This document shows, in pieces, positions 19,673-63,780 of a stretch of 64,000 nucleotides of DNA. Made by a program: the position numbers and the translations under genes. The notes under the pieces are model-generated. The model did no database searches. It worked only from the letters and a program-made list of their open reading frames with translations, and was not told where the DNA came from. The stretch is from assembly GCF_042242105.1 (NCBI RefSeq), contig NC_092019.1:16537328-16601327 (forward strand), given 5' to 3'. Within the stretch, counting starts at the first letter, position 1, and the number at the start of each line of letters is the position of its first letter. This DNA comes from Pempheris klunzingeri (Eukaryota; Chordata; Actinopteri; Acropomatiformes; Pempheridae).

Positions 19673-19772
19673 CCGTCACGGCGCGTCATTATTTGGATCT
19701 GTCCAGCCCTTACAACACTTGTTTCTATAGTAACAGAAATATCAGAGTATCCTAAAAAGTCCCATTCCCACA

Positions 19773-22700
19773 ATGCAGTCCTCTAGCTGCTCTTCTCAGC
19801 CTCCAAAGCCAAGGCGCTTTGACGTCAGCAGACGGACCAATACCTTAGCTGCACCAAAGTCTCATGGCCCTGGTTTTCAGAGGGAGGATAAAAACATGAA
19901 CACGGTCACCACGTCCTCCCCACGCCGGGTTACTAAAGGCCCCACTGCACCCACCAGGACCACCACCAGGGTGGGAGTGCAGCCTCGAACACCCGCGAGC
20001 CAGTCAAGGTTTAGCTCACAAAAACAGGGTTCTACCATTTCCAAATCAGTTAAGCCCAAACCCAAGAGTGCTCGTGCATCAGCGGCAACCAAAATTGCAC
20101 CCGCAGCAGCTCCTCCCCCGCTCCCCTCTGTTCTCCCTCTTGACCCGAATTGCAACGAGCCGAGCCTCCCGTGTCTGTGCTGCGATGGCCGCTCCCCACA
20201 GGACAACAACAGTATGTTCAACCATAACCACAACAACAACAACACCATCTCTCTCAGACAGCAACTGCAGCTACCGCCTCCTCCGGCCCCGTTGCCCCAG
20301 AGGCAGGATGGGACAGCGGCCAAGGTGCCTCAGCCTTCTTCACAAGAGAAGGCCCAGCTGAAGCCCTCTGCCTGCCCTGCTGCCAGTTTGGAAAATGAAG
20401 GCAAGAATGCAGATGAAAGTCCTGATCTGGACAATAAGAAAAATATAAAAGTAGAGGAAGAAGACGACGAGGAAGAGAGCAGTGGGGATATTGATATTGA
20501 TGATGATGAGGAGGCTGACAATGACGACGATGATGACGATGATGATACCCTAGTCCCCTCGTGCTGTGACTGCCCCCCCTCTCTCCTGGAGTTCTCGCTC
20601 TCCTCTTCTACCTCCTCATCCTCCACTTCCATCAGCTCCTGCTCTGATCTGGAGTCTGACTGTGCAGATCAATCCGCCTCCATCTGCTCTTCCAACGACC
20701 AAGACAATCTCTCTATCGCTTTGTCCCCTAAAGACCACTCACTTCCACAAGCCCCTGAATGCCATCCTCCTTCACGTTCACCCCCATCACTTCCTCTTAG
20801 CTGCAATCCCTTCTCCATAACATCCCATTCCCCGCTTCCCCCTTGCTCCCCAGATGAGGGCTACCCCTCTGCTCTTGATTCCCCTTCTCCTGACTACTTA
20901 GGGGTCAAAGGTGATTCTGAGGTCACCAAACTGGGCTTGCTGGACTTTCTAGAATCAGTAGGGGAGTTTGGGAAAATGGAGCGCTTCAGCCAGGTGATCC
21001 AAGTGGCTCGATGGGATCTGGAGGGGGAACAACACTGGGATGTTCTGAGGGATCGGCTAGATCACCTGGATCGCTTGGAGAAGGTGAACAGGGAAATAAA
21101 ACTGGCCTACATTGCTCGACTCCATGAGAAGGGATTTGATCTTGGAGATCTGGAAGAGCGGGATCTCTCAGATGTCATGGATGAAATGGGAAACATCGAC
21201 ATACCCTGGAAGTTGTATAAAAGCTGCGCAGGAACGATGGGAGACTCTCAGGAGTTTTCAGATGCGGGGGTCGACCTCACTGCTCCATCAGACTGTGAGG
21301 ATCCTCTCGCTCCTGATTCCCTCACCCCGTCTCCTGTCGAGCCGCCACCTAGACCCCCCAAACCTCCAGCGCGTCATGCCAGCGTCAGCTCTGACCTCCA
21401 CACCTACATCAATATCAGCAGGGAGACGACCTCCATGGCTGTCTCCACCTCTCCCACATTGTCTACTTTCTCTCCTAACTCCTCATCCCCCACATTCACC
21501 ACTTTTAGGTGTGAGAAACCCCTACCTCCATCTCCACCATCCATTCCTCCTCTCCCCACTTCTAAACCGGTCCCTTACCTCACCCTCTACACCACTCCTT
21601 CTCCACCTCCTGCTATCCCCACCCCAACTCCTCCCATTCCTCCACCTCGGAGGCGTCACCTTGCCAGAAAGGAGGCCCAGCGGCTCGCTGCTCTTCAAGC
21701 CCAACAGGAAAAGACCCCTCTTTCCCTTCCTCCTCCTACCACACGTCCCCCACCTCTGCCTCCTCCACCAGTTATATCAGTCTCCTCCTCATCTCCCCCA
21801 GCCATACCTCCTCCACCTGCCCTTCCTCCTCCCCCCTCCTTCCATGCACTGGATGTAGAGATTCGAAAGCTACTGATGCTTGCTGGATTGACCCAAGCTG
21901 AGCTCCTTAAACTCAGCCCAGAGCTTGGTGTTTGTGTCGGAGGGTTAGAGGACGAAGAAGACGGAGATAATGCTATCTCGACCAGGTCTGCGGAGCCACA
22001 TGAGTTTAGGCTAAAAGAGAGGGAGGAGGAGAGGGAATGTGACCCAAGGTTGATGACCAGAGATGGATGGAGCAGCAGAAGCAAGTTGGATGGAGATCGA
22101 AAAGCAGATATAGCTGAAGAAGGCAAAAAGATAGAGGAGATCAAAGACACTCAAAGAACCACTTCTTTCACTGAAATGGCAAGGAGAAGGAAGAGGAACA
22201 GCGGTCTGACTGCTGACCCTTACTACAGCACCGGTCGTAGCAATACTCACGAAACTTTCCGGTATCCTGCTGAGATACCAGATTCACCGCCCCCTCCTCC
22301 TCCTCCTCGGCCCTTACCCCCAATCCCCCCATCTGTACCACCCCTCAAAGTGAGCACTCTCCCTGCCAACTCTGCACAACCTGAGCGATTTGATTGGCTC
22401 ATAGCATTCACGCCTGATTCTGAAGCCCCACCACATGCTCCAACGATGGAAATGAGAAAATTTCATTTGGAAACTCAAAAGAAGCTCAGTTCGTCAGGGT
22501 CATCTCCAGGGTCAGCTCCAAAGGTCACAACTTTTAAAGAGCTGCGTTTCCGCAGCAAGAGCGCCTTCCCCCCAACAAAGGTGATCACTGAACCAGAGCC
22601 TGACCCAACAGTTATTACTCCAGATCCAGATATACTGTACAACCTGAGGTGGAGAAGAGAGAAGGCAGGCGGCGATGGCAACCAATGGGAGTACACCTCT

Positions 22701-25700
22701 CAGGCTCAGGCCTTTTTCATACAGCCTCCACCAGCACTCACCTCAATGGCTGCTTTGAAGGAAATGCTCCAGAGAGCTGACCAGGAGGGTGGACGACCAG
22801 AGCTGTGCCCATCACAAAAGATTGGCTGTTCAGTCAGTGACAGTAGCCTGTGGACCATGGGCAGAGAGTGGGAGTGTGAAGATCTCAAGAGGGAGGAAAA
22901 GGAAGGAAAAGAAGAAGAGGAGGAGGAGCAGAAGGAGACGAAGGAGGAGGAGGAGGAGGAGGTGGAGGTGAGAGGACGAGCCGATGGAGGAAGGACTTTT
23001 GAATCAAGAACTTCAGGTATGAATTTCCATGATGATGCTAATGATAATAAAGGAGGCAGATTATTTTGATGACATAAGGGTATGGGTCTCTGTGTGTGTG
23101 TGTGTGTGTGGGAGTAAATAAATGTATCAAAGTAACTTGATTTGGACGACACAACAAATCTGGGATGGGCAAATGATGGAGACAAACAGATGGGGGAAAG
23201 AGTCTGTTCACACTAATAACCTTGGATAGTGCAATAGAAAGAAACAGAAAACCAAGGGAGGTGAAAATGACTCATTTATGGAATTCATATATGGAGCAAG
23301 AGCGAAAAGATGGAGAACAAGCATGAGTCACAGAGAGGCAAGATGCGTGATATGATGGATAAGAGATGATGGGGGATTAACAGACAGGAAGAACGAACAC
23401 GACAGTGGGAGCCGGAGAGTGAACATGAGCAATGGCGAGAGATGGAGGGATAAAGACAGTGAGGAGAGTGAAGGTAATATGAGGAGAAAGAAGAGGTTGG
23501 AAACTTTCCAGCCAGCTTTTCCTGCACTGGTTATGAGAGTGTGATGTCATCACTGCCTTATTCAATTATTCATCCACTCCTCAGGCGGACGAGGGGAGGG
23601 GGTAATGTAGTGCCCACTGAGCTCACTACCTTTCTCTTCCTGCTTTCTACCCCTAACTCTCAGCTTTACTCTGCTACAGTCTTTTTTCTTTCTATCTGTG
23701 TGTCTTAAATCTTTGCCTGATCCTCTTTCTCTGCCTCTTTATTGGTTTTAAATCCCATCAACGTGGGATGTTTATATCCTTTTCTCTTGCTGTCTATCCT
23801 GTCTCTCCACCACCCCCCACCGTTGCTCTCTAGAGTGGCACAGATAGCTGAGATCAAGTTACTTATCTCATACAGTGCTGCAGTAGGCTATGTAGACATT
23901 AAATGTTAGATAGTAAATGTCTAGATAAACTAGGCCGTATGTTTAATTTACATTGCTCATATTCTCATAAAGCAAATTAGCGGCTATTTTAATAGTAAAA
24001 TTAATTCTGTGATCATATATCAATTTTTTGGTATTATTTCAGGATATTACCTTTGTTTTTTTGGTTTTGAAAGTCAAATCAATTACTAAAGAGTTGAATG
24101 GCTGGAGGGCAACAAGCCAGAAATAGGTGTGTACACCTTTAAGAGTCAAAGGGGTGGCTCTTAGCACACGGGCCAATTGCTGAGAGTTCACTGTCAGGAA
24201 AATAGGAAGTATCATGTGTTGGTTACAGTTCAAAGACAGCTCAAGTCTAACCAAGGTATGGTTATTTTCTAGCTCATTTTGTAGCCCATAGCCCAGCAGT
24301 CTCTCACTGGTAATAGAGTGTAATGAAAATGTCGTCGCCACAGTCTCTGAATCCTCACCGAGGCAGACATGGTGATTAAGCAGTAATAGACAGAAGTGTT
24401 GACTGACTCAGCAGTACACTGTATGCCGTACCAGTGGGGAGGGGAGGGGAGGGGAAGGAGAGAGAGAGAAAGAGAAAGAGAGAGAGAGAGAGAGAGAACA
24501 AGTGCAGAGAAGAGAAAGATCGTGAGAGAGAGAAGGTGATCCAGAGGTGATCATGGCACGCACTGCAGTAGAGAACAGAAGAGTTAGCATAAAGTTTGGC
24601 ATCCTCTGGCTTGTCTTCTACTTAACATTCATAGCTTTCAATACAAGTATAAAGTGAAAGAGAAACCAGATGCTGTAAAGAAATCTGGGATCCTAATATG
24701 ATGGATCTTTGTGATTGATGGTGGCATTTTAATTGTGGTGTCATTGGTGAATGAGTGGCTGATTGACAGATTGAGTATTTCTACTGCGCAGCCATGAGAC
24801 TGCTGAACAGTTCTTCTTTCATGGCCACGATATCATTTCCTGTAGTGTCAAACCCTCCTAAATGAAAGACTGGTTATTGCTCTTCATAAATCAACCCCAT
24901 TGACTCATGCACTGTCAATGTGTAACTGTCAATCAACTGTTTGACTTGTTTAAATACTGCATGATGTTACATGATGACGATTTCTGCTGGAATACACTCA
25001 TGAATGTGCATTTTTCTCTCAACAGACACTAACATTTTCTGCATCTCTCTCTCCTTCCCATTTCTTTGCCACATTTTTTTTCAACTTTCATCTTCCTTGT
25101 TTTTCTCACCTATCCATCCCATTCTGTTGTTTCCATTATTTGTCCATGGCTCCGCTTTGCTCCCTCATATCACTTTGCTTGTTTGCCTGCCCTCCTCCAT
25201 CCTGACTCCTGCACCTTACAATTTTTGGCCTTTTTTCCCCTTTCCAATAAGCAGTTTCCTCCCCCCCACTGTCCCTCGCCCAGTCCTCCCAACCCTACTT
25301 CCTCCACACTATCCTCCCTTCCTATCACACAGGCTACTGTAACTCCCAGCCCTTTGCAGATCCCAGACCTCACAGCCATGTAGGCAGGGAGTCCACGGAC
25401 GAGCAGTGCAACACACAGTGGGCTCCTGCTGTCAGCTCAGCTTGTATCCACACAGATGATTTGAACACTGATATAAGCTCTGGGTTTAACTATGAATCCC
25501 TGACTGATTTTGGCATAGACTCTCCTTGTGATTATGGGAATATCTTTAACACACACAGGGACTTTGCGTGTGACTCTATCTGTAATTTTGACTCTCTCTA
25601 CTGCAGTGACTCAGAGAGTGATACACACACTAAGACAGACACAAGTGTTAGTGGCACCACAGATCCAGGTTGCACCACCCCATATAAGAACATTGATGTC

Positions 25701-36725: not shown

Positions 36726-39700
36726 TCAGAGTGGTTCCACCTACATAAAGGCAAGATGCTATCAACAAAACAATGCATATACCTCGCTGAGTCCGTCCTG
36801 CTTCTGTATCTGATCTCTACCTTACCTTTCTCTGTTAGCTTATGAGTGCTGCAGGGTCAAAAGTAAATCATTCAGCCGTTTCCTCCTCTGTTCTCTGCTA
36901 CAGACCTCTTCCTCCCCTCGTTTTTCTCCCTCTCCCTCCTCCTCTTGTCTGTTCTGGGTTTTGGTGGGCTGTGGTGAACAAGTATGCGCAACAAATTGCA
37001 AAAACAGATTTTTATCCTTGTGGAAATTTGCGTTCTTGAAAGAAAATATCTTCTTTTTTTTTTTTTACACGGGTAGTGCTGCATTTGCTCACTTACACAG
37101 GGGCTGGCAGTGAGCAAGCTGGTGGTGTCCTGAATCTGATGGTGGGGGTCATTGCTGATAACCGTCACCTCCACCCCCACTGGCTGATCTGAGGGTCAGA
37201 GGTCAAACAGTATTCTGTATGTTAGTGAGATTGTTGCAGGATGAAATGAAAACAACACATCATTTCTTTTACAGACATATCTGTAATTATGTGAGTGTCA
37301 TTATTTCCCCTTCATTCCTATCTGCGATCGGTTGGGGAGTCTTTGATGGAAACTGTGTGGTTTCACTGCTAATGGGGAAAGTCGATGCCTGCTGGGTTCT
37401 TGGACACCAACAGTGGATGACAGAAATGGGGAAACATTTCTGCAGGCTGAAATTCTGTGGTTGGAAAACCACTTAGTTTGTGCTGCTGAGTATGATATGG
37501 AGAGACAAGCCAAATATGAGGACGACGGGCTGTAAACAGAGCACATACACACATACACTCATTCGCACACATACATGCACACATAAAGTAAAAGACACAA
37601 CACGAGACAACAGAAGAAATCTTTACAGATGTACAGTAAAAATGAAAAATGTATAGAGGTCAACCACATACACGTATACATACACAAACACCTACAGAAA
37701 CAAAAACTAACACACACACTTGCTTCATGGACCTGACTTGATGTGGCTGTCGTCCCCATTGGCTCCATCACAGGACAGACGTCTTGAGTCCCTCTCCTCT
37801 CCCTCTGCGTCTCTCTCTCTCTCCCTCTCAATCCGCAGTTGGATCTGTCTGTCTCTCACGAGCTCCCAGTTCCTCACAAGGAACACGTGGTGTTTCACCA
37901 CAAAGCTCCTGGCCCGGCACACAGGGAGAAACATAAGCCATCCACGCTGATATTAATTCAGTAACAGTGCATCAGGTAGTTTATCTGGGAATGTGAATCG
38001 TGTGTTCTTTCCATACCTCTCGCTGCTGGTCAAAGGCTCCATGTCGAGGTGAGGAAACAGGCTGGTAATGTCACTAGAGCTCTCCTCCTGTAGAATAAAA
38101 AGAAAATGGAGGGGCACATGCATGTTTTAATAGCCATTAAGGCTGCTTTCTTCACTGGAATGAAACAACCTCAAGCCACATGAACTCACCGCTGTCTGGT
38201 GAGAGGATACAGTCCTCTCCTTCAGCCGGCCTGAGTGAAACAGAGAGAGAGAAACAGAGTAAGAGTATTGATTTGACCCATCAACTAAACCTGAAAATAA
38301 CACATCTAATACTGGCAACTCACAGTAACGCCGCTTCCTCTTCAGGGGGACGGCAGGCTGCCGCTGAAGCTGTAAAAACAAAATATGAGAATTACATGTA
38401 CAGTCATGCCACTCCACAAATCACCTTGTAACACTGTTTTATCCCCAAACAAGCATCAGCTTGACCTCCAAACTTCACGTTTCTGCGTTATGGGGCTCTG
38501 CTGTACCTGATTGTGCTGCCACAGCCACATAACATCATATGGTAACTGGAAATGAATCCGCTTGAGCCTCAGGTACTTCCCTGGAGGATATAAAAGGAGG
38601 TTTGAATGAATTATCACAACCACAACAAACTGCACTAGTGTTTCCTTTTTCTTATATACTTACCAACATGTATGGGAGCAGGTAAAAGGCTATATTCACG
38701 ATCCTCTGGTGTGTATTCCATACTCTCTCTGCAAAATTGCTGGGTTTGGGAGGGAGGACTAGGAAGGAGACAGATTAAACACATAAACAAAAAAAAAAAC
38801 TGATAACAAAAAATGATGTTATAATAGTTTGTTTATGAACTGAGTCAACTCACTCTGTAGTTTTGTAATCATCAGAGTAAAGACCTGCCCTCAGGAATGT
38901 CTTCCTGGGAGGACCATCTGCTCTCTCCTCTCTTTGGATGGTTACTGGTTGGGATGGAGCCTGGTCGACATCTGATTGGCTAAAACATTCAGGGGGGGTG
39001 TCACACTCAGGTTTATCCTCAGCGACACTAAAAGGAAAGCATGAAGAGAGAGATAGAATGATAGAGAGGAAAAAGAGAAAGAGAGAAAAGGCACTGGTTT
39101 AGCACACAGTGCTGAAAACGATGGGTTAATATAGCAGTAGTGAGTGGTTGTATTGAATTTTCAAGTCAACCAGCTCAGGTACTTTACACTACTACGATAC
39201 AGTTGTGATTGTTTACCTCTGATGACAAGGAGAGTCACCATGTTTTCTCTTTCGTCCTCTCTTCCTCCTGGCCTGCAGCTCTAACTGTGTCACCTGCTGC
39301 ACGGAGTCGCCTCCTCGATCCCTGTCTGGCCCTCTTTCTTCTTTTCTCCCTCCCACTTCTCTCCCATCTCTGCTGTGGCTGTGTCCTGGCAAGAGGTCAG
39401 GAGATGACATGGAGGGAGCTGCGAATGAGTGTGTGGGGGAGGATACAGTGGAGGGCAGTGGGTGCTTTCTGGGCCGTCCTGGCCCTCTTTTGTTTTTCCC
39501 TGCCACACTGTCTGGCGTTGGCACACTTTTCTGCTGCCCCCGGCTTCTTGAGTCACCTTGTAAACCTGCAGTCATTGAAACAGGGAGGGGGGGGGGTTGA
39601 GGCAGGAGGGAAGGGGAGGGAAGGGTGGAGTGTATGTGGCGGAGAGGAAATGAGACAGATGTGGATCAGTGATTGAGCCAGCAGGAGGTGTGAGGTGAGG

Positions 39701-42700
39701 CCAGTCTAGGCTGAGTCATGCAGATGGGCCACAGATTAGGTGAGTCACAACATTTCCTCAGACCAGATCATTTCTGGGAAATACATTAAGAGGTGATTTA
39801 TGTACACACACACAGCAAAAAAAATCAGAAGAATGGACACAAACTGTGCAGAATGCATCCTTTTTAATGTGAGCCTGCACACGTATGCACTCTTTGCACA
39901 TCCAGTTAATGTGGAACACGATCTCAAAAGGCTGAGCAGACAAAGAAAGAGAGAAAAGTGTGTGAGTGTGCCCGTGCGAGTGTGCTCTGCTTCAAAACAC
40001 ATGTGTTTAGTTAGATGTCAAATGTATTCCACCTCTTTCAAAAACAGCATTTTCCCCTCACAAGCTCTGTTTGCCCCTATTCTGACCCCCGTGTGATCCG
40101 TTCATCAATCACTCCTGAGGTCATCTATCTTTTTGTTCCATTTTCCACAGTCCCTGACAAGACTGACCACTCTTTCCTTATTGGATTTTTCCAAGTCAAA
40201 TAGGCCCTGTTGGCCAGCAGTGAGGGATAGGCCAGGCTTTAAATAGCCAATCTGGTGGTTAACTAATGACTGTGTTCACTAGGCAGCCCCGGCCTGCAAC
40301 AGCATGCGGTTCACTGCAGACGGGGAAGATTTCAAAGATTTTCTGGAAGACTCCCATCAAAATGCTGCCCTCTTGCTATAACACTTTTTTAAGATTCCAA
40401 CAGAGAGTGATTGCTAAGTGGCTGCATTTGTGTGTGCATGTGTGTCTGTGTGTGTATTGTTAGGCACGTCCCTTGCACAGCTGAGGGAGTCTGAAACTGG
40501 CTATAAAAAAAGCAAGAGTCTGATTTCCTCTCAAACACGCTCCAGGCTTTAAAGTGTGGCTCAACACCTGAGAAAAAGCTATGCTTTCGCTATATTGGCC
40601 AAACTACTGGTGCCACAATCTCATCTCCACATTGTGCAAATATAAAAATCTGTCATACTGTGCAAGTGAAAAGAGCTTCTTGGCATAAAACCTATTTACT
40701 CAGCTAGCTGTCATGATTTGGGTGGTATTGATGTTCTGTATTTCAGTGAGTAGATGTTAGATTTCCCATGTTATCTAAATCACTGTCAGTATTCTATGTA
40801 TTCACATTTTCCGCAATTTAGATATATAACTTTGCATTCACAGCTCGAGAATCAACGTTAACAATGGAACTGTTTTGGAACAGTTATCAGCACAGGCAAT
40901 TTCCAGCCAGAGAAATACTACCATTGCATCATGTCCAAGTATCAACTAATCTCAAACTGAACCATCCTAAAGAAACACAGCGTTTATTCTGTCACACATT
41001 TATCGGTCAAACCATTCATGCACCCTCACCTGCTTCTCTCCTCTCTGTCCACGCTGGCTCGTCTCTCCTCCATGACCTGTCTCCACTTCCTGGATTCCTC
41101 CCGGCCTGTCCGCTCCTCAGGCCCCTTCCCCCTGTTGCCATGGCAGCGGATGTGAACAGGTTGGTGTGTGTTGGGGACATCCTGTACAGGTGTGACTCGT
41201 CCTCGCCATCTTCGTCCTCTCCATCTGATGCAATCAGTCTGCCTGTTTGCTGCTCTCCAGTGAAGCTTCTCCAGCCGGGGTTTGAGTTTCCAAATCCTGT
41301 CCCTCCAAGGCCCCCGAATTTAGTCCAGCTCTGGCCCAGGCCACCCCATCCCCCTCCGAATGAAGACAGGTGAGAGGAACCCAGCCCAAGTGAGGTGAGC
41401 GATGAGTGTTTGTATCTCTCTGTTGCTGCTGCTGCTGGTGATGATGACGATGATGTGCCAGCAGCAGCAGAGGAGAAGGAATCATTTCCGTTTTCACATA
41501 ACCAGGGCGACTCTTTAGACAGCATACCCCCCATTCCTCTTGATCCTTTTCTTCCTCCTTCTCCTTGTCCCAAAATGAAACCTGACCTTGGCTTTGAACT
41601 GGCCAACCCCTCTCTATCCAGTTCATCTTCCTCATCGTCCTCATGTAACTCCTCTTCGTCATCCATGTCTCGCTCGCAATGCCTGTGACGGTGTTTATGT
41701 TTGTGTTTGTGTTCACTCCTTCCACAGCCACAGGAGAGGTTGGATGTGAACCCTGAGCTGAGGTGTGGGCCTCCTCCACTGCCTCCTCCTATATCTCCGT
41801 CAATCTCCCCACCTAAAGCCCCCTCCCTCAACAGCCTGCTCCGCCGCCTGTGGAATCTGGCAGGGTTGAGGAGGAAGTGGGCATGATGGGGCTGGTGATG
41901 GCTGTACTGGTGTGGAGAGGGAAGCGGGTAGGAGCTGGGGAGGTGGTGGTAAAGTGTTGTGGCTGGGGGATAGCTGCTGTAAAAGCCCATATTTTCAATG
42001 GTCTCCTGGAACTTTGACGGGCAGCCGCATTGCCTGCGGTCCGGTTTCCTGTTACAATGCATAGGCTGGCAGGGATAGAAAGGCTGGGGAGGGAAGGAGG
42101 GATTAGCTGGGTAAGATGAAGGGTGAGGCGAGTAGAAGCCATTCAAATTGATCCTGAAGATGTTGGAGCGGAGAGAATGGGAGGAGTGATGGCGCCTTCC
42201 TCCAGCAGCATTCCCGCTCCCATCAAAGCCCTGTCCAAGTCCCGTCCTCACCCAACTTCGCCGTCCGATATGGACCTCGTTAAACTGGCCGATCAGATCT
42301 TCTAGTTCAGCCAGAAACTCTGGATCCTGCATGTGCAGCTGCTGGTGCTTCTTCTTGTGTTTATTTTTCTGTCTCTTCAGTGCATTGTGCCCAAGGCAAG
42401 GGTAATAGTCTGAATGAGTGCACTTGTTATGTCCGGGGCAAGGGCACGGGCACAAGCAAGTACAGGGGGAGGAGCAGTCGTAATCCCTCCGCCTGTGCCT
42501 GTGTCTGTCTCTGTGCCGCTCCACAGTGGCTGAGTTGGTGATAGGGTTTGTGTGTCTTGGCATGTGAGAGAGAGGTGAAGAGACAGGGGACGGACGGTCC
42601 ACAAGAGAGGAGGGGTGCCTTTGACCCCCCAGAATCACTCCTGACCCCTGACCCAGCCTGAGCATGCCTCGAGCTCCCCTCATCTCCCCTCGTTCGGAAA

Positions 42701-45700
42701 CACTGTTGTTGTCCGTACCAATCCCACTGTCGCTAGGCAGAGTCTCTTCGCTGTGTGACTCACTCCTAGGGGAGGGGGTGGCCTCTTTCAGGTGGCCAGG
42801 AGAGCCAGGTGTGTGATGCAGAGGAGGGGTGGGACAGGAGAGCTTACATGAAGACTGGTGAAAGGGGAAGTGATGCCTTCCCTGACATGGACAACTCTTC
42901 TTCACAAAGGGAGAGAGCGACGAGGAGGAGGGAGGACGCGGGGAGGTACAGGAGGATGACGGGGAAGGGAGGGAGAAGGGGTGAGGAAAAAGTAGAGAGG
43001 ATGTTGGTTCTGTGAGGCTGCCTTCACTATAGGGGCTCTGGGCCCCGCTGGAGTGTGTGAGAGATGGGGAGGGAAATGGGTGGGAGGAAGCAGGCTGGGG
43101 TTGGTTCGACGAGAAGAGAGACGTTTCAGAGGGATTGGTAAACAGAGACGACTGAGTGGAGATCTGAGGGTTGGTCTGCACTGTTGGGGCTGTTTGGGCT
43201 TTAGGCTTTCGTCCTCGCCTCTTCCCCATGTAGATGGTCCCTCTCTTGCTCACATTTATCTGAGGGCCCAGCTTACTCCCAAAGGAGGAGGACAGGGCTG
43301 AGAGTGTGTGTACTGTTGTAGCCTCTATCGATTTACACATTCTCAAAGAGGTCTCACCATCTGCTGCCTCGCTACCCCTCCCCTCCTTTCCCACATACCC
43401 AGACAGCATTACCTTGTGAAGTCTCCTCTTCTTTCTTTTCTTCATCTCATTAATCAGCCTCCGGATCTTTAGCTGCCTGTTCCCCTTTTCAGGAGGATGG
43501 AAATCTTTACTCCTGTCTCTATCATCAGTGCGATTCAGTGCATCTCCACTCTGGTCCTCGGGGAGGGGCCGTTTGGGAGGACGGCCACGCTTCTTGGGGC
43601 TGGATTTAGACTGAGCGGCACACTGCAGTATTGGATTTGGCTCCAGCACAGGGGCTTTCTGAATTCCGTCACACCCTAGAAGAGGCACCTCTGTTGGGAT
43701 AGCGTTTGGAGAAAGTCTAGGTGGAGGTTCATCTAAGGTAGAGCTGTGGGATTTAGGGCGGCCTCTCTTTCGGGCAGGGGTTATGGGGCATCTGGAAGCA
43801 GAGGGGCTAGATTCTGACATGGGGTGACCCTGCTTTGGGGATGGCGGCTTGGTTGAAGAGGAGAGAGGGGAGGAGCTGCTGGTTAAGGAGGTAGAGGGAG
43901 CTGGGTGTGGCTCATCGGTCTGCTGAATAGTGGCCTTGGCAGGAAGGGATGTCTTGGGGTTCTGGGAGAAATTTAGTAAAGGATTATGTTGGGAATCTGA
44001 AGGGGCTTCCTGATTTTCCGCCCTCTGAGCCCTGTGCACCAGCTTGGTCCAGCTGGGCCGTCTGGCTTTACGTTTCTTGAGAGGTCGGCTGTCCTGCTCT
44101 TGTGGGGAAGACGGGGGAGAAACGGGGGCACGGGCTGAAGGAGTGGGCAGAGGGGGAGGAGCAGAAGAAGAGGGATGGCTTGCAGGCACAGTTGAATGTC
44201 TTGAGACGTCTTGGTCTTTTGATTTACTGGTGTCACCTGTTGCTGTTGCTGGCTCAGCTTGTTTAACTGGCTTGCAACTGTCATTTGTCTTTTCTATCTC
44301 ATCTGGCCTGCCTGGATTCACCACTTTACATGTTTTGTCTAGTTTACCACTTTCAACCGTTTCAACAGATTTTGCTATATTATCCTCTGTTCTTTGTCTG
44401 TCTGGGCTAAGCTTATCCCTCTTTTTCTCAGCCTTTCCTCTTTCAGTCTTTAGTTCTTCCCTCCACATATCATCAGGCCTGTGTCGTTCATCCTTTTCTT
44501 TACCATGCCTTGATTTTCCATCCTTCCCTTTCTCCTTTTTCTTCTTCTTGCCTTCCTCCTTTCTGCTCTCACTCTTTGCTCTTTCGGCCTCTAACCTATC
44601 CCTCTTAGATTTTTTGTCTTTCCGTTTCTCCTTCTTTGCTTTCTTCTCTTTCTCTCTCTTTTTCTCTAGCGAGGGCCGTAAAGAGGGATCCTGATCTTGG
44701 GACTGGGCAGAGGAGAGATCCACAGTGGGGGAAGACTGTGGTTTCGAGGTAACCGAGGGAGAGGAAGGTGTGTCTGGCCTACTCTTACTGGACAGGCTAA
44801 GTTCTTTATGGGAACTGGTGGAGACTGGAGGTCTTGTTGAGGTGTCCATGGAAGAAACAGAGGAGGAACTGCTGTGTTTTGCAACTTTGTTTTTCGACGA
44901 GGTGGATGTGCCAAGGATGTCGGCAGAGCCTTTGCCATTGGATAGTCCCTTCTGTTTTGTTGTTTGTACCAGACCATTATGTTTCTTGGATGTCTTTCCT
45001 TCATTCCTGGTTTCCAATGCAGAGAGGGCTTGGATGCAAGGGGTGGAGGGAGTAGTCGAAGCTGTCTGGTCTGTTGTGGGCGAGCAGGGTTTGTGTCCTG
45101 AAGGGACAGGCTGTCCATTGACACTAGGAAGCTTGTCTTTCTTCACTCTCTCAGATGAGCCATTTGAATTCACCTCTGTCTTATCGGCCAGTTTGATAGG
45201 AACCTGGGGAACGCAAACACAAAATCGCTGTCATAGACAACAATGGCTTTGACATCCATTAGTTTGCTGTTGACAACAGTGAAGGACAATGTGGAAGAGA
45301 CAATAACTGAAATGCTTTTGTTTTTGCCCACCCATTAAAAGAGAGAGTGAGGACAAAATGACTCAATCAGGCAGAGAAAAGAGGGCATAGTGAGGAGAAG
45401 GAGAGAGTGAGGTGATGGAAACAGGAATGGGGTTGACACAGAAAGGAGAAATACAAAGGCAGAGAAACAGAGGAAGGGAGTGGGACAGGGACGGAGGGGG
45501 AGTGAAAGATAAATGAGAGCAGGTAGAGAAAAGAGGGGATGTAAAAATAGACGAGAGGGACAGATATAGAGAGCCAGGCAGAGACAGAAAGAGAGAGAGA
45601 AAGCTGTGCTATTGGTAGCTATAAATTGCCACTAATACAGATGAGAAGGCTTGACATTTCGTACTTGTCCTGTAATTTTGGTATGCTGCAGCTTGAGTGG

Positions 45701-46780
45701 CGTTTGTACAGCTAAAGCAATAAGCTTCCCCTTGGGTGATAGTCATAGGGACTGATGGACCAATGTCTGTAATAGCTCCAAGTGGTTGCCGTGCTGTTGT
45801 CCTATTTATAGGTCTGTTCATTTATATGGGCTGCTTAGGTTTCAGTATTGAGACAATAGCTCATTTGACCTTATTACAACTGAGCACAAAGCTGAGCGAT
45901 ATTTTAACTGCAAAGGGCTAAACAGAGCTACAGCACATATGTCCCATTAACAATGTATGGATATCTTCAGCCACTGGAACCCTTTTTCATGTCAAGCTAA
46001 CTGAAATTAAAAGCGGGTTTGATATTAGCAGCTGAAATGAGGGAATCTGTATGTGTGTGAGGCTAATTGGCCTCGTCCTTAACTTACCTGTTTGGCAGAC
46101 TTGGTCCCTTGGCTGGTTATGGCAGGGACGGATGCTGGGGTGGAGGCTGTGGTAAGCGTCGATGATAACGCCAGTGGCTGCGATGATGATGATGAAGAAG
46201 ATGATGATGATGACGATGATGATGACGATAATGATGATGTAAGTGGTGGTGAAGCAGCAGACGCGGTTTGTTTGGATGTGGTCAGGAGAGCGTCCAAGCC
46301 TGAGCGTTGGTCTCTGGTTGCTTCATCCAGAGTAGAGCTGGTTTTGCTCTGCTGGCCCTCTCCGTCCCCCCTCGGCAGTCCCCCTCTGCCTTGTCTCTGA
46401 TAGGTCCTGATGGTGGGCTTGCAGACGTAGCTCTCTAAAATCTTGGGCGGTTTCTTGGTGCGCTTGGCCTGGAGTCCAATCCGGAGTCGTACATTCCCCT
46501 CAGGGCAGCTGGTCTCCTTGCCAGAGATCTGAAGCTGTTGCTGCCCTGCGCTTCCACAGCGCCCCTCGATGAGCAACTCCAGCATTGCCCCCTTGTCTCC
46601 TTCTCTCTTTTTCCCTGCTCCTCGTTTCTCCTCCTCTTTTTCCCCTACATCTCCATTCTCCTCCTCACCTCTCCTCTTTTTCTCTGCTACTTGATCCCGT
46701 TCACAGTCTTCGGGTGCAGAGGTGGGGTCCAGAGTGGTGTTTGTGGTTGGAGGGGGTCCCCCCTTCACTCTCTGGTCCAT
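36726..46780 (-). CDS. ASH1L-like protein lacking the SET, bromo, PHD and BAH domains
   Basis: Minus-strand coding exons, in order: 46780-46088, 45203-41030, 39565-39217, 39027-38854, 38758-38664, 38580-38507, 38369-38324, 38230-38190, 38087-38017, 37908-37733, 37188-37097, 36740-36726. They total 6,000 bases: 1,999 residues (human ASH1L about 2,969). ASH1L signatures include [44 protein letters not shown] and [10 protein letters not shown]-hooks lie near residues 710, 770, 894 and 1652. The pre-AWS segment [20 protein letters not shown], then FQLPYD, is conserved. The frame then skips AWS-SET-postSET and resumes at the post-SET linker ([17 protein letters not shown]), ends at the position of human NIKSD, and adds a new tail of about 35 residues. 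Histone H3K36 methylation is therefore not expected. The last two exons are the least certain. Confidence 0.88.
46181..46239. repeat. (GAT)n trinucleotide repeat coding poly-serine
   Basis: Read on the minus strand this tract is TCA/TCG codons and gives a run of about 18 serines in the first coding exon of the ASH1L-like gene. Confidence 0.9.
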
Positions 46781-47662: not shown

Positions 47663-49731
47663 TCTCTCTTTCTCTCTCTGTAGACCACACAGTAAAATGG
47701 TCAACTCATACACTGTATCCATGTTAATCAGAACCATATTTTCTTCCTCCGCTTCGTTCTTTTCCTCCTCTCAAGCCTAAATCCCTCCATTCACGGTCCG
47801 ACCATTCCCCTCCTCCCCTTTCAGTAGTGGTAACACAAATCCGTAGGAAAGGGTAAAACTTATTTTTGGAAAGGAGTGCGAATTCCTCCTCCTCCCATTG
47901 CTTCCTCTAAGTCAAGTAAGCTTTTCATTGACCCCATTGTAAATTGACTTTTAATGTGACATTACAGCAGGCAACACACCCTAAAATAACATTCTCCCCA
48001 GCAGAAAAAAAAACAACTTTCACTCTCACTCACACTGCGTTCAGCCCTGTTTTTAACACATCGAAGGGAAGCAGCATCTTCTGTCATGCTTCCTTCATTA
48101 TACTCTTGCTCTCATTAAGGGAGACACTCATCCATTTTCTAATAAAACACACCCTGCCAAGCATTCTTGCAGCTCTCTCCTGAGAGCCTCTTATGAAATA
48201 GCTCGTCTGTCTCTCAACACACTGAACTGCCGCCTTAAACTTACAAGAGCATCTCAGATAATGTTTTCATTTAAGAGCTCAGTGGGCTATCTCTCCTGCC
48301 TCTTGGTCCCTCCACGCCCAAACTCTTTCCTTGAATCATACCGAGCTCAAATCAACATCTGTTCCAGTAACTGCTGTTATGTAACAGTTTTGGAAAGCAT
48401 TTCCAAGGCCAAACAATAAAATAAAACGAGGTGGACAGTGGTGCTCTTAAATAACTGAAGCCACTTCTATTATGACCTCTACTCCAAAGTCCTGACCCTC
48501 GTGAAGAGGAGCAGACCGGAGAGGATACGGCAAGAGGAGAACACTGAGGAGAACACTGAGTCTTTTGGGTTTCAATCTTGTTTTGCAAAAGGGAGTATAT
48601 AAGGGGAGAAGAAGAGTGGCAGGTTTTCAAACTTAAAAGGGCAAGCCCATTCAACATCAGTCAGAGTGCATACTAATAGCTTTTTATACTCTCCAGAGCT
48701 ACACCTCTCAAACATAACTCAGAATTATTCTAACATTAGACCAGAAGCTATTTCCAGTGACAGGATGATGGGTGGACTTGACACAGTAGTCAGTGTGGTT
48801 CCTCGGCAGCGCTGAGGCGACGATTAAATCATGATAATGGCCCACCATATTTCCAGCCATCATCGCCATCCCATGACGGCGTTATCATCAATAACTACAA
48901 CACCATTATCATCTGCCTGACGACAGGACGAGCACGGCAGCCCAGCTGGAAATTAGGGCTGCTGCGATGGCATCTCAAAAACAGTGAACCGTGAAGCCTG
49001 AGACAGGCGGTGCAGCCCCACTCCACGTTCACAGGGAAGTTTCTCACGTGAGTCTCCCTCCTCCTCACACACTTTCCCCTAGTTAGTGTATCAGAAGTGT
49101 GTTGGTCGTACATTGTGTACCCAGGTCGCAGCTGCGTAGGCTGAGTGAGTGATGTTGCTACTGTAGATACAGTATGGGCAGTGGGGGTGTTACCGCACTG
49201 GAGCAACCTATCACTGGTTTACTGAGGACGTCAACAGGGGCTTCCTTCTCCATAATGACTTTGCGCACCCCTGAAAATCACTATCCGCCTGATGCTGTCG
49301 CACTTACAAATGATACACACATGCACGTGTTGTTGTCGTCACTCCTATCTCCATAATAAAATATAACCCACATTTATGCGTCCTAAAACGCACACGCAGC
49401 TGCGCACCGCAACTCAACATGGAAGTGGGGTGCTACGTAGCATCAAAATATGCCTGCTGGTGGTGTTTGTGGCGTGGATCGGTCCCGAGCCACCTTTTTC
49501 TCTCCTATCTGTCCTCTGCCAGCCCTTCTGCTGGTGTCAGCAACACTGAAATGAGAAATATCACCGCGCACGGAGAAACATACTCAGCAACAAGGGATAA
49601 AATTAGCGCAAAGCGGATGCACAAAATTCTCACTAACCTCCCGAGCTGTGAGCCCGCTGATGATGACAGGCCTGCACACATTAATACAGTCTGCCATGAA
49701 AATCTCTAATAAGGCTACGTAGGCTACTTAC
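46781..49731 (-). other. 5' intron(s) of the ASH1L-like gene
   Basis: About 3 kb between the coding start and the probable leader exon. It contains a CT microsatellite (about 47625-47660) and pyrimidine-rich stretches. No conserved coding exon is seen. Confidence 0.4.
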
Positions 49732-50164
49732 CCGAGAGCGCGTCCCAGAGCCAACTGCGTTTAGGCAGGCAGGAGGTTAAGGTGCTGCTTTCCTGCTCTC
49801 TCCCCTTCGCACCAAAGGCAATCCACAGCTTTTGGTGCATTAGATGTTGCTTTGATTACATAACTAAGGCCGGCGGAGGTTAAAACACCTCCTAAAACCG
49901 AGTTTCAGTCTCATCGGAGCGCAGAGCCGAGTGTGCAACAACATTGGCGCGGGTGTTTTTATAATCTAACAGTCGACAGATCTCAGTCGGCGCGTCTCCG
50001 CAGCTAGGTGGCGGACTGGTTACACTGGATCCTGTTTGGCCCGCTCCTCTCGGGGAAAGTTACATCTCTCCCGCCAGTAATAATGGCTCGGATTGTGCTC
50101 TCGTTTGCATACAAGCAGTTAACGTGTCGGGACGGCAGGCTGAAGGCTGAGGGCTGCAGCAATG

Positions 50165-50212
<48 letters not shown>

Positions 50213-50400
50213 GGGGTTACAAGCTGACAGCGCAGAGGGGCTGGTGGATGTGCGGGAATGCAAGTGCGTGGCCATTTTCATGTGGCCAGAGGAGGAGATA
50301 AAACGGTGAATACAGCACAGGATCTCATTGCGGTTCATAACAGGAGATCGGGGAGGGCTATTTAGACGCTTAATAAAATGGCGACGACTTGGCTAAAGTG
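49732..50400 (-). promoter_or_regulatory. CpG-rich promoter and leader exon of the ASH1L-like gene
   Basis: A minus-strand donor (CTCGG then gtaagt) ends a leader exon at 49732. The adjoining 49740-50300 segment is rich in CpG. It contains a (TG)n tract (about 50164-50210) and an AAAATGGCG YY1-like motif near 50376. The transcription start is not resolved. Confidence 0.5.
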
Positions 50401-52300
50401 CTGCTGGTAGGATTTGGGGAGCAGCTCAAAAGTTGTGCCGCGTAATGCAAATATGGGATTCAGTTTACACTAGTGGGGGAGGACAGAAAAGCAGGCACTC
50501 ATTAGAAAGTTATTACGTGAGGGCTGTTTATCATGCACCCGTTTAACAGAAAATATGCAAATCCAAAACTACAAACTGGGTTTTTGCCCACTCATGCAGA
50601 CATAATAACACACAATCTCTATAACATACAACAAAACATATTCATAAGTCTTATCCACATTTAACATAATTGGTTTAGAATGATCATAAAATAAAGCAAT
50701 AACTGATAATAATTAAATAAAATCACAGTGATAACAATAACAATAATTATGATAATGAAGATAATGACAATGATAATGCACTATTGTTGTTGTTACCTGT
50801 AGTGTTATTTAGTACCAACAGTGTTAGTAGCAGTAACACCATTATTTATAGGTGTGTAAGCAAGGCCGGATTCACCCTCTATGTGGCCCAGGAAAAAGAT
50901 AAGCGTCTGGGCTCCTATTGGCCCCCTGCTCTTCCTGCTCTCTGTGCATTGTGTACATTGTAGTCTCCAAATACCCATTACATGCACACTGCAGACTACA
51001 CATGAATTTCACCTGTACTCAGTAAACAGTCAGTGCTGCTTGCCTAGAGTTTACTGTATGTCCAATAGTTGTTTTGGAGTATGTATCATGAAAGGACAAT
51101 ATCAGCTAATAGTTTTTAAATCTAGATTCAGGGTCCCTGATATGTCATAATGTATTTAAGTTGCTGTGCTGTGGTGCTAAATTACTACAAACCAAATGAC
51201 ACATATTGAACTTGGGGCCAGGCCACTTGGTGCTGTTTCCCCGGTTGGTAATCAGCCTCACCTAAAGACATGTGGCTACATTAAGCGGAACCCAGAAAAA
51301 AAAATGTCAGGCCCCTATGGCTCACCCTATAAAGCCTCCACTCCCCACCTCTTGAGCTTTGTGTATTCACCCCGTCAACTTCAAGTTCCCGTCAGCTACA
51401 GTGAGCACAGAGACCAACGCAGCAGTCCTCTTACAGCGTGGGCGTACTGTTACGGGATCCAGATTTTCTGTGAGTCAGTTTGAAGTTTGTTAATAAAACA
51501 CTTAAACTTCTGAGGGGATCAACACTTTCATGACACAAAGCAAAAAAAAAAAAGTCAAATCTTAAAGAAAGGCTGATGACAGAAGACTTGGCATTTGTGT
51601 GCAAAGCCTTTCTTTCTCAAACACAATATACACTAAAACATTTAAGGTCACATTTGGTAATAATGCAGGTAATAGTAATGCCTGTAGGCTATATTTTTCC
51701 TTTTTCAGGTAGGCATAAATGTTTCTGACTAAAATGTTATAAATGTTTGAAAGGCTTAGTTACCATAACTTTGCATAATGCAAGTAATGAAACTGAGCAA
51801 GTATGTACAATGGAGTGAGTAGTGGTTAAAGTATGGATATGGAGCATGGAAAATAACATATGGAATAACATAGAACTTGAGAATGAGGAACCAAATGAGG
51901 CTATTGACATTATATATATAAAACTATAAAGTAAAAATGTACAGTACAAAAGTGTTGTAAAGCAGCTCTGAGGCTTATGGAAGAAAACTTGTGCAGGTTT
52001 TGTTTTCATCATGGATATCCACTTTGTAAAAGCTGATTGTAACGTTTTTATCTCCAAGCAGCTAATACAGGTTAGCAGAGATCATAGCCTAAAGTTGAAA
52101 ATACTGTAGTTGCTTAAGGCACAAGTATGAAAAATCTCCCGTGTTTAGTGCTTTAAAGAAGCACCGTATTTCCCCAAATTGTCATCTACATGTGGAAAAC
52201 CTCCACGGAGAGTTTACAGCTGCTATAGGTCTGACTGCATCCAGCATTTCTGCAGGTGAAATGTGTCAAAGTCTCATAAACTCCATTTTCCTTACTTGTT
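50401..52300. other. Intergenic DNA between the ASH1L-like gene and dap3
   Basis: AT-rich with many AATAAT/ATAATG repeats (50640-50790). Two perfect POU octamers (ATGCAAAT) lie at 50445-50452 and 50555-50562, near the ASH1L-like promoter. No gene is recognised. Confidence 0.4.
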
Positions 52301-59259: not shown

Positions 59260-62200
59260 ATGGCGTTGTCCTTGCCATCATTTGTGCTTTTGGGTCTTGT
59301 TTTGCTCTCAGCAGAAGTGACCCTCTCTACAGGTAACACTAAACACCACACAACAGCTGCTTTTGCTTGCATTGTCCCAGTGCTTGCATGTAAAGTTGAT
59401 CACAAAACCTCACACATGAAAAATAAATCATGTTTCTGTGACTTCCTCTCCTTCCAGGAAGTAGTGAGTGTATTGCCAGAAATTTTGGCCATGACTCGGT
59501 GGTGTGTGTGTGTAACTCAACCTACTGTGATAGTGTTGGTTCAGCCACCTTGCCTCCTCTGGGCCAGTACTCCTCCTACCTGACCACCATGGCCGGCAGC
59601 AGGCTAAAAGCAGGCCAGGGTCAGCTCCAGGTGAACAGCACCTGGGCAGGTGAGTGACCCGGCCTTTTCCTGGGACGTGTGTGATGCTGAAGCAGGCCCA
59701 TGGTATCTCTTTTGTTGTATGCTTTTGTTTGTGCGTCTCTTTCAGGCCTCAGGTTGACTGTCGTCCCCTACCAGAAGTACCAGAAGATCAGGGGATTCGG
59801 TGGAGCCATGACGGACGCGGCAGCCATTAACATCCTGTCTCTGTCTGCTGGAGCACAGGACCAGCTGCTGCGCCAGTACTTTTCCCCTGAAGGTACAGAG
59901 TAAAAAGCTGGTAGCCACTATCAAAAAGAAGAAGTAAATGTTCTGTGCAATAGCTGAGTAATTAGATCAGAAAAGGAATATCCAGGAATAAGATGCACAG
60001 TCAGTATTCTTGTTTGTCTAATTTTAATGTAAAAAAAACATAGTAACCAGTGTTTCTCGCATAGCAACGGTTGTTCTGCTTCAACGTAATGAAAAATTCA
60101 TTTCACACGTTCTCTTAGAGGTGTCTATATGTGCAGGTTAGTTTGTTTCCTACATTAACAGGATGGAGGATCATCAGTAGCAGCAACATCTCATACCAGC
60201 AGTACATGTATGCGTGTAAAGGAATTAATTCAGTATGTAGATGTGGGATGGCTAATGTGTGCAGAATCACTTAGAAAATATTGAAACTGTTGTTCAAAGG
60301 AATTAACTATATTCCACTATTAGATGACACCAAACGCTTTACATGTGTGTAAGGGTAACACTTTACTGTGACTCCCCCTATTGGCACATGTACCATCTAA
60401 ACAAATAGGTTTTTAACACAGAATATTGTAGTTCTAACCAGAAATAAAGGCATTTTAAGTGTTTATGAATGTACAGTGTTTTGCTAGTACAACTACTATT
60501 ATATTTTCACTAATACTCTTTTATTCACCAGTATCCACTCTTGGACGCCCTCAAGAGGAATAATTATTGTTTGCATTGCAAAAAAGAAACATTGTACAGA
60601 AATAAAAAGACATAGAAAGTATTATCACTCCCTAATATCTTACTTCATATGAATAATCCAAATTATTAATGTAGTCATTTTATGTGGAGGTTTCCAACGT
60701 ATATAATCAAAATATTTTCCTCTATAAGTTGTATAAATGATAATAGTGAATTATGACCCATGCTGAATGTCTGGCAGGGATCGGCTACAGCGTGGTGCGC
60801 GTGCCCGTGGCCAGCTGTGACTTCTCCACCCGTCTGTACACATATGCTGACACACCTGGAGACTACAGCCTGGACAATTTCACACTGGCCCCTGAAGACG
60901 TCAACATGAAGGTGTCTCTCCTCTCCTACGCTCACACATGCATATGTCCATCGCTCTGTCATCCTGATCTCTCCTCCTCCTCCTCTTCCTCTCAGATCCC
61001 TCTCCTGCAGCGAGCTCAGGCCTTGTCTCCTCACCCTCTGTCTCTGCTGGCCAGTGCCTGGAGCGCCCCTGCCTGGATGAAAACTAATGGTGCACTCATA
61101 GGAAAGGGCTCCCTGAAGGGCCAGCCTGGGGGCAAGGAGTATAAAACCTGGGCTCAGTACTACATCAGGTGACATGTGGGGCTCAACCTTAATGTGACGT
61201 CACATGTTTTATACAAAGGAAAACTTATTCTGCTGGTCACTTTTTCCTTTCCTCTCAGGTTCCTTGAGGAATATGCTAAATATAACTTGACTTTCTGGGC
61301 ATTGACCACAGGGAATGAGCCCTCTGCAGGACAGATGACAAACTACAGGTCTCTCATTTTATTACACAGAATTAACCGTCTTCATGGCTCCTAAATTTCA
61401 CAACAGACTGAGAAACATCTTTGTCTCGCTGCAGTTTTCAGGCTCTGGGCTTCACTCCTGAGGAGCAGAGGGACTGGGTAGCTCTGGACCTCGGCCCTGC
61501 CCTGCACGCTTCATCATTCCCACACACACACATCCTCATAATGGATGACAACCGCCTGCTGCTGCCTTACTGGGCTAAAGTGGTGAGTCCAAGGGCAGAG
61601 AGATAGTGGGAAAGGTCATGGTGAGGTTTGTTATCCCTGAAGCTGCACTGGTGTAGAAAAGAAATCAGGAATTAATCAGCATAAGAGACGACAATAGATT
61701 CATTGATTAATAATGTACAATACAGATTAAAATCAAGTCAAGAAAGATATGACATGATAAAAATGTTTAGATGAATGTTGATATAGGTGTAGTTTGCTAC
61801 CATACGCTGGTGAAACAGCTGCAGGAATAAAACAGCCTCTTAGATCTTCCATCTTTGGGCTCCAAGTTGCTCTCTGGAGGAAAGAGTCTGAAACTACCAA
61901 TTTATCAGGAATAAACCAGCTTGTCTTGTGTAGTAGATGAGATAGCTTTTTTTGTTTGTCATAGAGAGGCCGCAAGAATCCACGACAAGATTTAATAAGA
62001 AAAAAACAGATTTCTGCAGGGTTAGCCAAGTTAAATTGAAGACTTTTTTTGACCCTTTAATATGACCTAGAACACAATTTAATATCTGTTTCACGGTCGT
62101 ACCAGCTAAAGCATAAAAACGTGATGGAAAACTAGGAGGTATGATACGGCCTAGAAATATTTGTTATTCTTTGATATTTTTTTCAGTTCTTCCCACCAGT

Positions 62201-63780
62201 ATGTGACAAAAATTCCAAATGATATAATCAATTATATTAATGAAACCTGGACTCAGATGAGCTGCATCCAGCTCACACAATCCACTTTTAGTTTATAGGA
62301 GTATAACCTCTCCTGACAACCCACAAAGAACTTGGCTAACACTACTGTCTACAGCAGGCAAGAGGAAATATTTATGACCACTGTAAATTAAATCAATGGC
62401 TTTTTAATACCTTCTAAAGAACTTTTTTGACAAAATTCAGTGCTTTTTAAGGCTTTTCATTACCCGTAGATACCCTGAAAAAAGGACATTGGTGCTCTTT
62501 TTGGCTTGTACTTTACTTGGAAACTCAGTTTTGTCTTCCGTGTCCCTCCAGGTCCTAAGTGATATTCATGCAGGAAGGTACATTCACGGTGTGGCTGTTC
62601 ACTGGTACTTGGACAGCCTGGTCCCAGCTGAAATTAGCCTGGGAGTCACCCATGATCTCTACCCAGAGTATTACCTGTTTGGCACAGAGGCCTGCTCTGG
62701 CTGGAACTCACTAGACAGAGGGGTGAAGCTGGGAAGCTGGAGCAGGGCTGAACAGTACGCGCATGACATTATAGAGGTAAGATCATCTTAGCTCATACGT
62801 GAGACTTGTTCAGTCAGATCCACCGTAACAGATGTGAGATTTGACAAGCTATGAGCTGTTGTTGAAAGGTGAATCTTCCCCCCTTTGATGCTGCAGTGCA
62901 GGTTTACAAGTTGCACTCGGCTGCACACTCTGTTCAGAAACTGCCTGCAGGCTATCAAAGCAAGCTAGAACTGGTGTTCTGTTTCTTCTTTCTTCATTTG
63001 CTCACAAAGGAAATTGGACTCCCTCCATTCTATCCATTTTGCATGGGTGCTTTCAGACTGTAGATATCTTGAGAATCTGGAGGGATTTGTTTATGTAGAT
63101 GTGTTGCACTTGTGATGTTTAAACAAAACACCAGACACAGACCAATTGATTCATTTAGACAAAACACAGACTGGATACTAAACTGTGGGTGTTTTCTCCA
63201 TGGCAGGACTTAAATCATTACGTGGTGGGTTGGACTGACTGGAACCTGGCATTGGACCAGACTGGTGGGCCAAACTGGGATAAAAACTTTGTAGACAGCC
63301 CTGTTATTGTGGATGCACAGCGAGACGTCTTCTACAAGCAGCCATCCTTCTACGGCATGGCCCACTTCAGGTAGCAAACTGGGCCGCACATGAGCTTTGT
63401 TTGTACTTAATGCCATTTTTCACCTGTTCCACTATGAGGAGGAAGCTGTATCATGAATCCACACAACTCACCTTTGTACACAGTAAGTTCCTGTGGGAGG
63501 GGTCTCAGAGAGTGGGCGTGTCCGCCAGTCAGGAAACCCACCTGGAATACTCTGCCTTCATCAGACCAGATGGCTCAGTAGTGCTCATCATACTCAACAG
63601 GTACATGAAATGTGGGTTTAATGAGCAAACGCCAGGAAATTAATTCTACTGAACGGTGTGCTTGTGTTTTGTAGGTCATCCTCAGTGATCCAGTTTGAAG
63701 TCTGGAATCCCGCTGTGGGCTACATCCCCTCCACTGCGCCGGCTCATTCATTGCTCACACTGGCCTGGAACACACACTGA
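59260..63780 (+). CDS. gba: Lysosomal acid beta-glucosidase (glucocerebrosidase)
   Basis: Eleven coding exons: 59260-59332, 59458-59649, 59746-59892, 60778-60911, 60996-61168, 61259-61348, 61435-61582, 62552-62776, 63207-63370, 63484-63600, 63675-63780. Length is 522 residues (human 536). The enzyme (GH30 family) hydrolyses glucosylceramide in lysosomes, assisted by saposin C. The N-terminus [18 protein letters not shown] is a signal peptide. The acid/base Glu260 is in NEPSAG and the nucleophile Glu365 in FGTEACSG; their spacing of 105 residues equals the human enzyme (E235/E340 mature). N-glycosylation sequons include NSTY (counterpart of the essential human N19), NSTW and [32 protein letters not shown] and [11 protein letters not shown] are conserved. 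An in-frame ATG slightly upstream is less likely as the start because it would bury the signal peptide. Confidence 0.97.
59893..60777 (+). other. gba intron 3
   Basis: 885 bp, AT-rich. The segment from about 60350 (GGGTAACACTTTACTGTGAC) resembles termini of teleost non-autonomous DNA elements, but no matching far end was found. No coding content. Confidence 0.35.
61583..62551 (+). other. gba intron 7
   Basis: 969 bp without recognisable exons. Minus-strand frames in this stretch lack any known domain. Confidence 0.4.

Follow-up and report, generated by a model that had tools for sequence, protein, structure and literature searches.

Structure of an ash1l-type gene in the window

The window, a stretch of 64 kb from Pempheris klunzingeri, carries on its minus strand, between 46780 and 36840, an open gene of the ASH1L type. 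ASH1L (KMT2H) is a histone H3K36 methyltransferase. The gene was modelled as 12 exons that together encode 2037 codons and a stop, and all 11 introns start with GT and end with AG. Its features are given below in the order of transcription; C16 denotes the contig of the same genome that carries a second ash1l gene, and also the locus of that gene, and the other C numbers are likewise contigs.

49001..50750, no strand: CpG-rich stretch (by CpG observed/expected ratio) upstream of the gene, candidate promoter
46088..46780, minus: exon 1, 693 nt, start ATG (MDQRV..)
46088..46780, minus: within exon 1, N-terminal conserved block of 28 residues
41030..45203, minus: exon 2, 4174 nt, long and of low complexity, with AT-hook cores
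41030..45203, minus: within exon 2, a block of 18 residues and a degron-type motif of 10 residues
39217..39565, minus: exon 3, 349 nt, with an AT-hook segment of 11 residues (tblastn E=0.002)
38854..39027, minus: exon 4, 174 nt, length identical in C16, with a segment of 11 residues
38664..38758, minus: exon 5, 95 nt, length identical in C16, with a segment of 19 residues
38507..38580, minus: exon 6, 74 nt, length identical in C16, with the FxLP motif (FQLP)
38324..38369, minus: exon 7, 46 nt, length and phase as in C16, final segment ahead of the missing AWS
38231..38323, minus: intron 7, 93 nt, place of the lost AWS-SET-postSET block
38190..38230, minus: exon 8, 41 nt, putative 3′ remnant of the post-SET exon
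38017..38087, minus: exon 9, 71 nt, linker of 24 residues, homologue of a 68-nt C16 exon
37733..37908, minus: exon 10, 176 nt, with a segment of 22 residues and a weak donor, GTCCAT
37189..37732, minus: intron 10, 544 nt, place of the lost bromodomain-PHD-BAH block
37097..37188, minus: exon 11, 92 nt, without clear homology, tentative
36840..36968, minus: exon 12, 129 nt including the stop, with a segment of 19 residues, tentative

Exon 2 contains no stop in its own frame and 37–79 in each of the other five. The CpG observed/expected ratio was 0.65–0.85 in windows starting from 49001 to 50251, against a median of 0.34; equally high values occur elsewhere in the 64 kb, for example 0.91 at 52251.

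The coordinates proposed for exons 7–10 in the first-pass annotation of this DNA (38369–38324, 38230–38190, 38087–38017 and 37908–37733) were exact to the base, and the introns between them, given there as about 90 bp, were modelled as 93, 102 and 108 bp. The joined coding sequence is not the exactly 2,000 codons that had been stated. Our model gives 2037 codons and a stop, or 1966 if exon 10 is read through its weak donor, CAG|GTCCAT (position 37733, minus), where C16 has CAG|GTGAGT. If this donor is unused, the protein would possibly end two residues later, at 1966. The assignment of exons 11 and 12 is tentative, and the match of exon 12 to the C-terminal region of ASH1L was not significant (E=1.5 and 5.7).

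Loss of the methyltransferase and reader blocks

To compare the gene with ASH1L, we used an approximate human ASH1L sequence as a tblastn query, with E values up to 10. In the window the search found the N-terminus, the long central exon, the AT-hook exon, the pre-AWS segment and an 11-residue linker; SET, bromodomain and PHD gave no match there. A Pfam scan of 36801–39230 at E≤0.1 gave no domain in any of the three minus-strand frames; a single frame from the C16 locus, scanned as control, showed SET and no other domain, so that the scan is validated for SET only. Between the counterparts of exons 7 and 9, C16 has five exons of 109, 207, 147, 109 and 150 nt, where the window gene has only one, of 41 nt. 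The absence of the AWS-SET-postSET block between exons 7 and 9, reported in the first-pass annotation, was confirmed, and the window gene does not contain this domain of the ASH1L enzyme.

The 13-residue peptide of exon 8 aligned without gaps to the terminal part of the 150-nt C16 post-SET exon, matching it at 7 of 13 positions, a score reached by 2 of 20,000 shuffled sequences. The most plausible reading of exon 8 is therefore as what is left of the 3′ end of the post-SET exon, and the loss would comprise four complete exons together with the 5′ portion of the fifth. The acceptor apparently now lies inside this former fifth exon, with the reading frame preserved. The phases agree, as had been reported: with exon 8 set against the post-SET exon, those after exons 1–10 are the same in both copies.

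A second block that the earlier annotation had not described, bromodomain-PHD-BAH, is missing between exons 10 and 11. The BAH domain of human ASH1L gave only chance-level tblastn matches in the window (E 2.6 and 7.6). The statement that bromodomain, PHD and BAH are all absent is based on tblastn, as the control of the Pfam scan lacked these domains. At the deletion sites we found no tandem array, just short matches with mismatches, most of them rich in purines or pyrimidines or made of A/T runs. These results show that the window copy lost its methyltransferase and reader blocks by two internal deletions, while the 5′ two thirds, the linkers, the splice frame and the reading frame survive.

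An intact ash1l gene elsewhere in the genome

The first-pass annotation had proposed a genome-wide tblastn for a second, SET-containing ash1l. In the 646 Mb of the genome (439 contigs), a search for the AWS family found five places, one of which, on C16, is ash1l. Its AWS and SET exons are 71–86% identical to the human ASH1L query; the other four are less similar to it and look like the NSD type. The C16 locus matches residues 22 to 2955 of the 2964 of that query, BAH included; here the exon-by-exon model covers the first 14 exons, and the remainder was followed by tblastn. Exons 4, 5, 6 and 7 have equal lengths in the two copies (174, 95, 74 and 46 nt).

We considered whether the SET and reader exons could have been dropped or misplaced in the assembly. 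When peptides of the C16 SET, bromodomain-PHD-linker and BAH exons were searched against the 439 contigs, the three strong matches all lay on C16. Six weaker matches elsewhere reached at most 51.7 bits with 31–39% identity, one of them on the contig of the window, about 260 kb beyond it. C-terminal pieces of the window protein matched only C8 (seven places) and C16 (three places). As ash1l-type SET and BAH exons are found only on C16, mis-assembly is unlikely. The window is also free of N, and an artefact would have to account for two separate losses with the phases in order after each. Nothing was seen in favour of an assembly artefact, which we regard as very improbable.

Descent of the window gene

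Trees were constructed from the window gene, C16, human ASH1L and a further ash1l-related locus, C7. In the 1025 columns (of 2968) that were filled in all four rows, the window gene paired with C16 with support of 99/98. When human SETBP1 (SET-binding protein 1) was added (940 columns) the pairing was retained at 97/94, and C7 grouped with SETBP1 at 100/100. C7, which on its N-terminal match had been a candidate for a third, SET-less ash1l, is thus setbp1.

Because N-terminal blocks of the window gene are common to SETBP1, it could be asked whether the window gene is itself setbp1 or another relative rather than a copy of ash1l. We give this possibility practically no weight: setbp1 is the separate C7 locus, and the window gene falls with ash1l in the trees, not with SETBP1, and contains ASH1L exons 4–10, for which no match was found in the C7 stretch that we fetched, part of which reads N. 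The window gene shares both the exon structure and the phases of ash1l.

The terminal branch of the window gene is 1.46, against 0.41 for C16, in the four-row tree, and 1.54 against 0.30 with SETBP1; this 3.5–5-fold difference counts against the reading of the gene that we favour below. In the tree with SETBP1, the program flags the row of the window gene as long and its placement as less sure. Long-branch attraction would, however, be expected to draw the window gene towards SETBP1, not towards the short branch of C16. The window gene is thus the sister of a SET-containing ash1l against human ASH1L (bootstrap 97–99%), in agreement with the earlier proposal of a SET-less paralogue. This pairing indicates a duplication in the fish lineage, after the split from tetrapods, with the human rows of the trees being approximate sequences. 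From the trees, the saturated synonymous divergence (below) and the neighbouring genes, the teleost genome duplication (3R) is likely to be its cause. A scan of viral contigs gave no relative.

Seven ORFs near the C16 gene were tried as neighbours: an SK channel was matched by two of them and a ligand-gated channel by another two. The neighbourhood of the window gene includes a gene for a glycosyl hydrolase 30, a CD20-like ORF and a sub-threshold RUN match. We take the neighbours of both copies to be KCNN3, CHRNB2, GBA1, FAM189B and RUSC1, genes of human 1q21-22. Two ORFs beside the window gene, which we presume to be of RUSC1 and FAM189B type, were tried as markers of a duplicated block, and for neither was a further copy found close to C16 ash1l. 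The RUSC1-type ORF matches only itself in the genome and the FAM189B-type ORF has relatives on C1 and C7, and both were rejected as markers. Upstream of the sub-threshold RUN match, an ORF of 1111 residues lies at 19734–23069 on the plus strand; it has no Pfam match and is probably the long exon of rusc1.

The relation to SETBP1 can be described further. Like the window gene, SETBP1 is a SET-less relative of ASH1L with the N-terminal block and AT-hooks, and the two share a block of 11 residues and the degron of 10 residues. SETBP1 differs in forming a separate, older branch, and ASH1L exons 4–10 with FxLP were not seen in it. A motif scan found no [DE]HxY in the window gene, a motif that we take to be of the HCF1 type and a feature of the SETBP1 side. 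Both C16 ash1l and the window gene have the long exon in one piece. In C7 setbp1 it is divided into three or more open segments that differ in frame, which suggests that introns were gained there.

Constraint on the coding sequence

The first-pass annotation held that the gene is still under coding constraint. The alternative is that the gene is decaying: with constraint relaxed once SET was lost, it would be heading towards a pseudogene and be open only because the loss was recent. The long branch (1.46 vs 0.41), the weak donor of exon 10 and the loss of all folded domains are what such decay would leave. Among 1484 columns common to the window gene, C16 and human ASH1L, 335 were changed in the window gene only, 120 in C16 only, and 452 were different in all three. 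Simulated mutation of the window coding sequence gave 0.056 nonsense changes per missense change, so that about 19 nonsense changes would be expected alongside the 335 unique changes if these were neutral; none was observed. The protein alignment places 59 gap events on the window lineage (34 deletions and 25 insertions, the SET block, the other large loss and the unmatched tail included, with gaps in disordered stretches being uncertain), and the frame is open throughout.

Human, C16 and C7 have the same residue at 245 sites, 82 of which are changed in the window gene; of 259 sites at which human and C16 agree and C7 differs, 146 are changed in it (p=3e-7). Synonymous divergence from C16 is saturated, with pS of 0.776 over 1701 codons and 0.765 over the 1072 best-aligned codons, and no dN/dS ratio was obtained. 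The lack of nonsense changes and the fewer changes at deeply conserved sites therefore support coding constraint over the whole history of the copy, the time before the SET loss included. Set against the open frame after so many substitutions and gaps, decay seems improbable to us.

Retained motifs

Exons 5–7 match the ASH1L chains of PDB entries 6ine and 6ago (E=1.3e-17 and 4.5e-12), which we take to be complexes with MRG15. FxLP, to which the first-pass annotation did not refer, is present in its ASH1L context as FQLP in exon 6, and prolines of exon 7 match P2064 and P2067 of ASH1L by the numbering of the human sequence used here. The assignment of the two entries fits the structures described in PMC8106495, where P2064 and P2067, beside FxLP, are implicated in activation. 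According to PMC5963871, FxLP is needed for binding of MRG15, which stimulates Ash1 about 30-fold in the fly and 7-fold in human. In the P. klunzingeri genome, genes with an MRG domain were represented by five exon matches, on C1, C5 and C24.

Of the 24 sites in exon 6 at which C16 and human are identical, 5 are changed in the window gene, compared with 335 of 912 over the whole gene; this is slower than the gene average, but the sites are not numerous enough to demonstrate selection on FxLP. Chance alone can also produce the bare motif, as a second match to F.LP, at residue 974, makes plain, and this counts against the reading given below.

AT-hook cores of the window gene lie at residues 711, 770, 894 and 1725, with one further PGRP in exon 3. 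C16 has five such cores, and those at its residues 631 and 1311 are without an equivalent in the window gene, which likewise tells against that reading. The window gene also contains a degron-type D-S-G-phi-X-T sequence, DSGIGT, within the 10-residue motif at residue 1056 (42700–42750, minus). It follows the definition of the SETBP1 degron, DpSG-phi-X-pT, given in PMC5386295. Human ASH1L, C16 ash1l, the window gene and C7 setbp1 all carry this degron, the disease hotspot of SETBP1, which raises the possibility that beta-TrCP targets ASH1L itself.

Possible function of the SET-less copy

ASH1L, as represented by C16, and the window gene are alike in exon order, phases, the four equal-length exons, the N-terminal block, the AT-hooks, FxLP and the 11-residue linker. 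They differ in that the window gene is without AWS, SET, post-SET, bromodomain, PHD and BAH, and so has no methyltransferase domain of its own, and has the longer branch. It probably serves as a scaffold instead of an enzyme, or else competes with the active copy. On balance we favour a fish-lineage duplicate which, having lost both blocks, would act as a SETBP1-like, non-enzymatic chromatin scaffold with an MRG15-binding arm, perhaps as an antagonist of Ash1l.

The product, of about 2,040 residues and mostly of low complexity, would most likely bind AT-rich DNA through its AT-hooks. DSGIGT would most likely govern its turnover, and FxLP would hold MRG15 on a protein without the capacity to methylate histone H3. 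Least certainly, competition for MRG15 and for target sites might lower the activity of Ash1l.

Published observations favour the SETBP1-like scaffold with an MRG15 arm. Fly ASH1 without SET is reported to bind chromatin as before and to support survival (PMC8426247); catalytically dead ASH1 together with MLL1 activated the HoxA9 promoter in cell culture to twice the level of wild type (PMC3225378); Ash1 is described as multimeric, with domains that complement one another in trans (PMC6829142); and SETBP1 is described as a DNA-bound hub acting via its AT-hooks (PMC5989213). The N-terminus of ASH1 was called most similar to SETBP1 in PMC3225378. Other reports speak against the scaffold. Loss of BAH alone reduced mitotic binding to 41.5% (PMC8426247), and in flies SET, PHD and BAH, and not the AT-hooks, were each found to be needed against Polycomb, while a truncation starting inside SET was not dominant negative (both PMC6829142). 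The weak donor of exon 10, and exons 11 and 12 without significant homology, count on the same side.

As an unlikely alternative, the product might be a SETBP1-like DNA-binding protein of which the N-terminal half alone matters, with the FxLP exon and the later linkers as passengers and no part for MRG15. The best conserved blocks of 20 residues are mostly in exons 1 and 2, several being common to SETBP1, and exons 5, 7 and 10 are changed at 11 of 28, 6 of 14 and 15 of 41 sites, close to the gene-wide 335 of 912. Against this, frame and splice sites are preserved throughout exons 4–10, exact lengths in four of them, and FQLP with both of its flanking prolines is intact. The scaffold with an MRG15 arm could be taken further, to a built-in antagonist of a trithorax enzyme, given to fishes by a genome duplication, that withholds MRG15 from the active copy, tunes H3K36me2 and reached its SET-less form independently of SETBP1; this extended proposal is rather doubtful, if possible.

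Relation to known ASH1 systems

The individual pieces are known, and SETBP1 is a precedent for a SET-less relative of ASH1L. Laboratory parallels are provided by the Drosophila Ash1 deletion lines (delta-SET, delta-BAH and ash1-3M). Those lines were made by design, whereas the window gene is a natural duplicate without both blocks beside an intact copy. Among the matches listed for open-licence papers, none described a natural SET-less ASH1L by its title and the start of its abstract. The form 'ash1la' that occurs in the literature proved to contain a footnote mark. A zebrafish SET survey (PMC2200798) and a tilapia bromodomain survey (PMC9454494) each give one ash1l in the passages concerned. 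A gene count based on SET or bromodomain is blind to such copies, and SET-less loci may already be annotated as ASH1L-like in gene databases.

The locus represents a natural separation of the ASH1L scaffold from its enzyme and reader domains, with an intact copy alongside. Whether ASH1 acts via H3K36 methylation or by other means is disputed (PMC6829142, PMC3225378, PMC8426247), and a vertebrate ASH1L without SET makes possible a direct test of methylation-dependent against other action. Exons of glycosyl hydrolase family 30 (GBA1 by family) adjoin the SET-less gene at 60750–63643 on the plus strand, and this gene next door provides a handle for locating the locus in other fishes.
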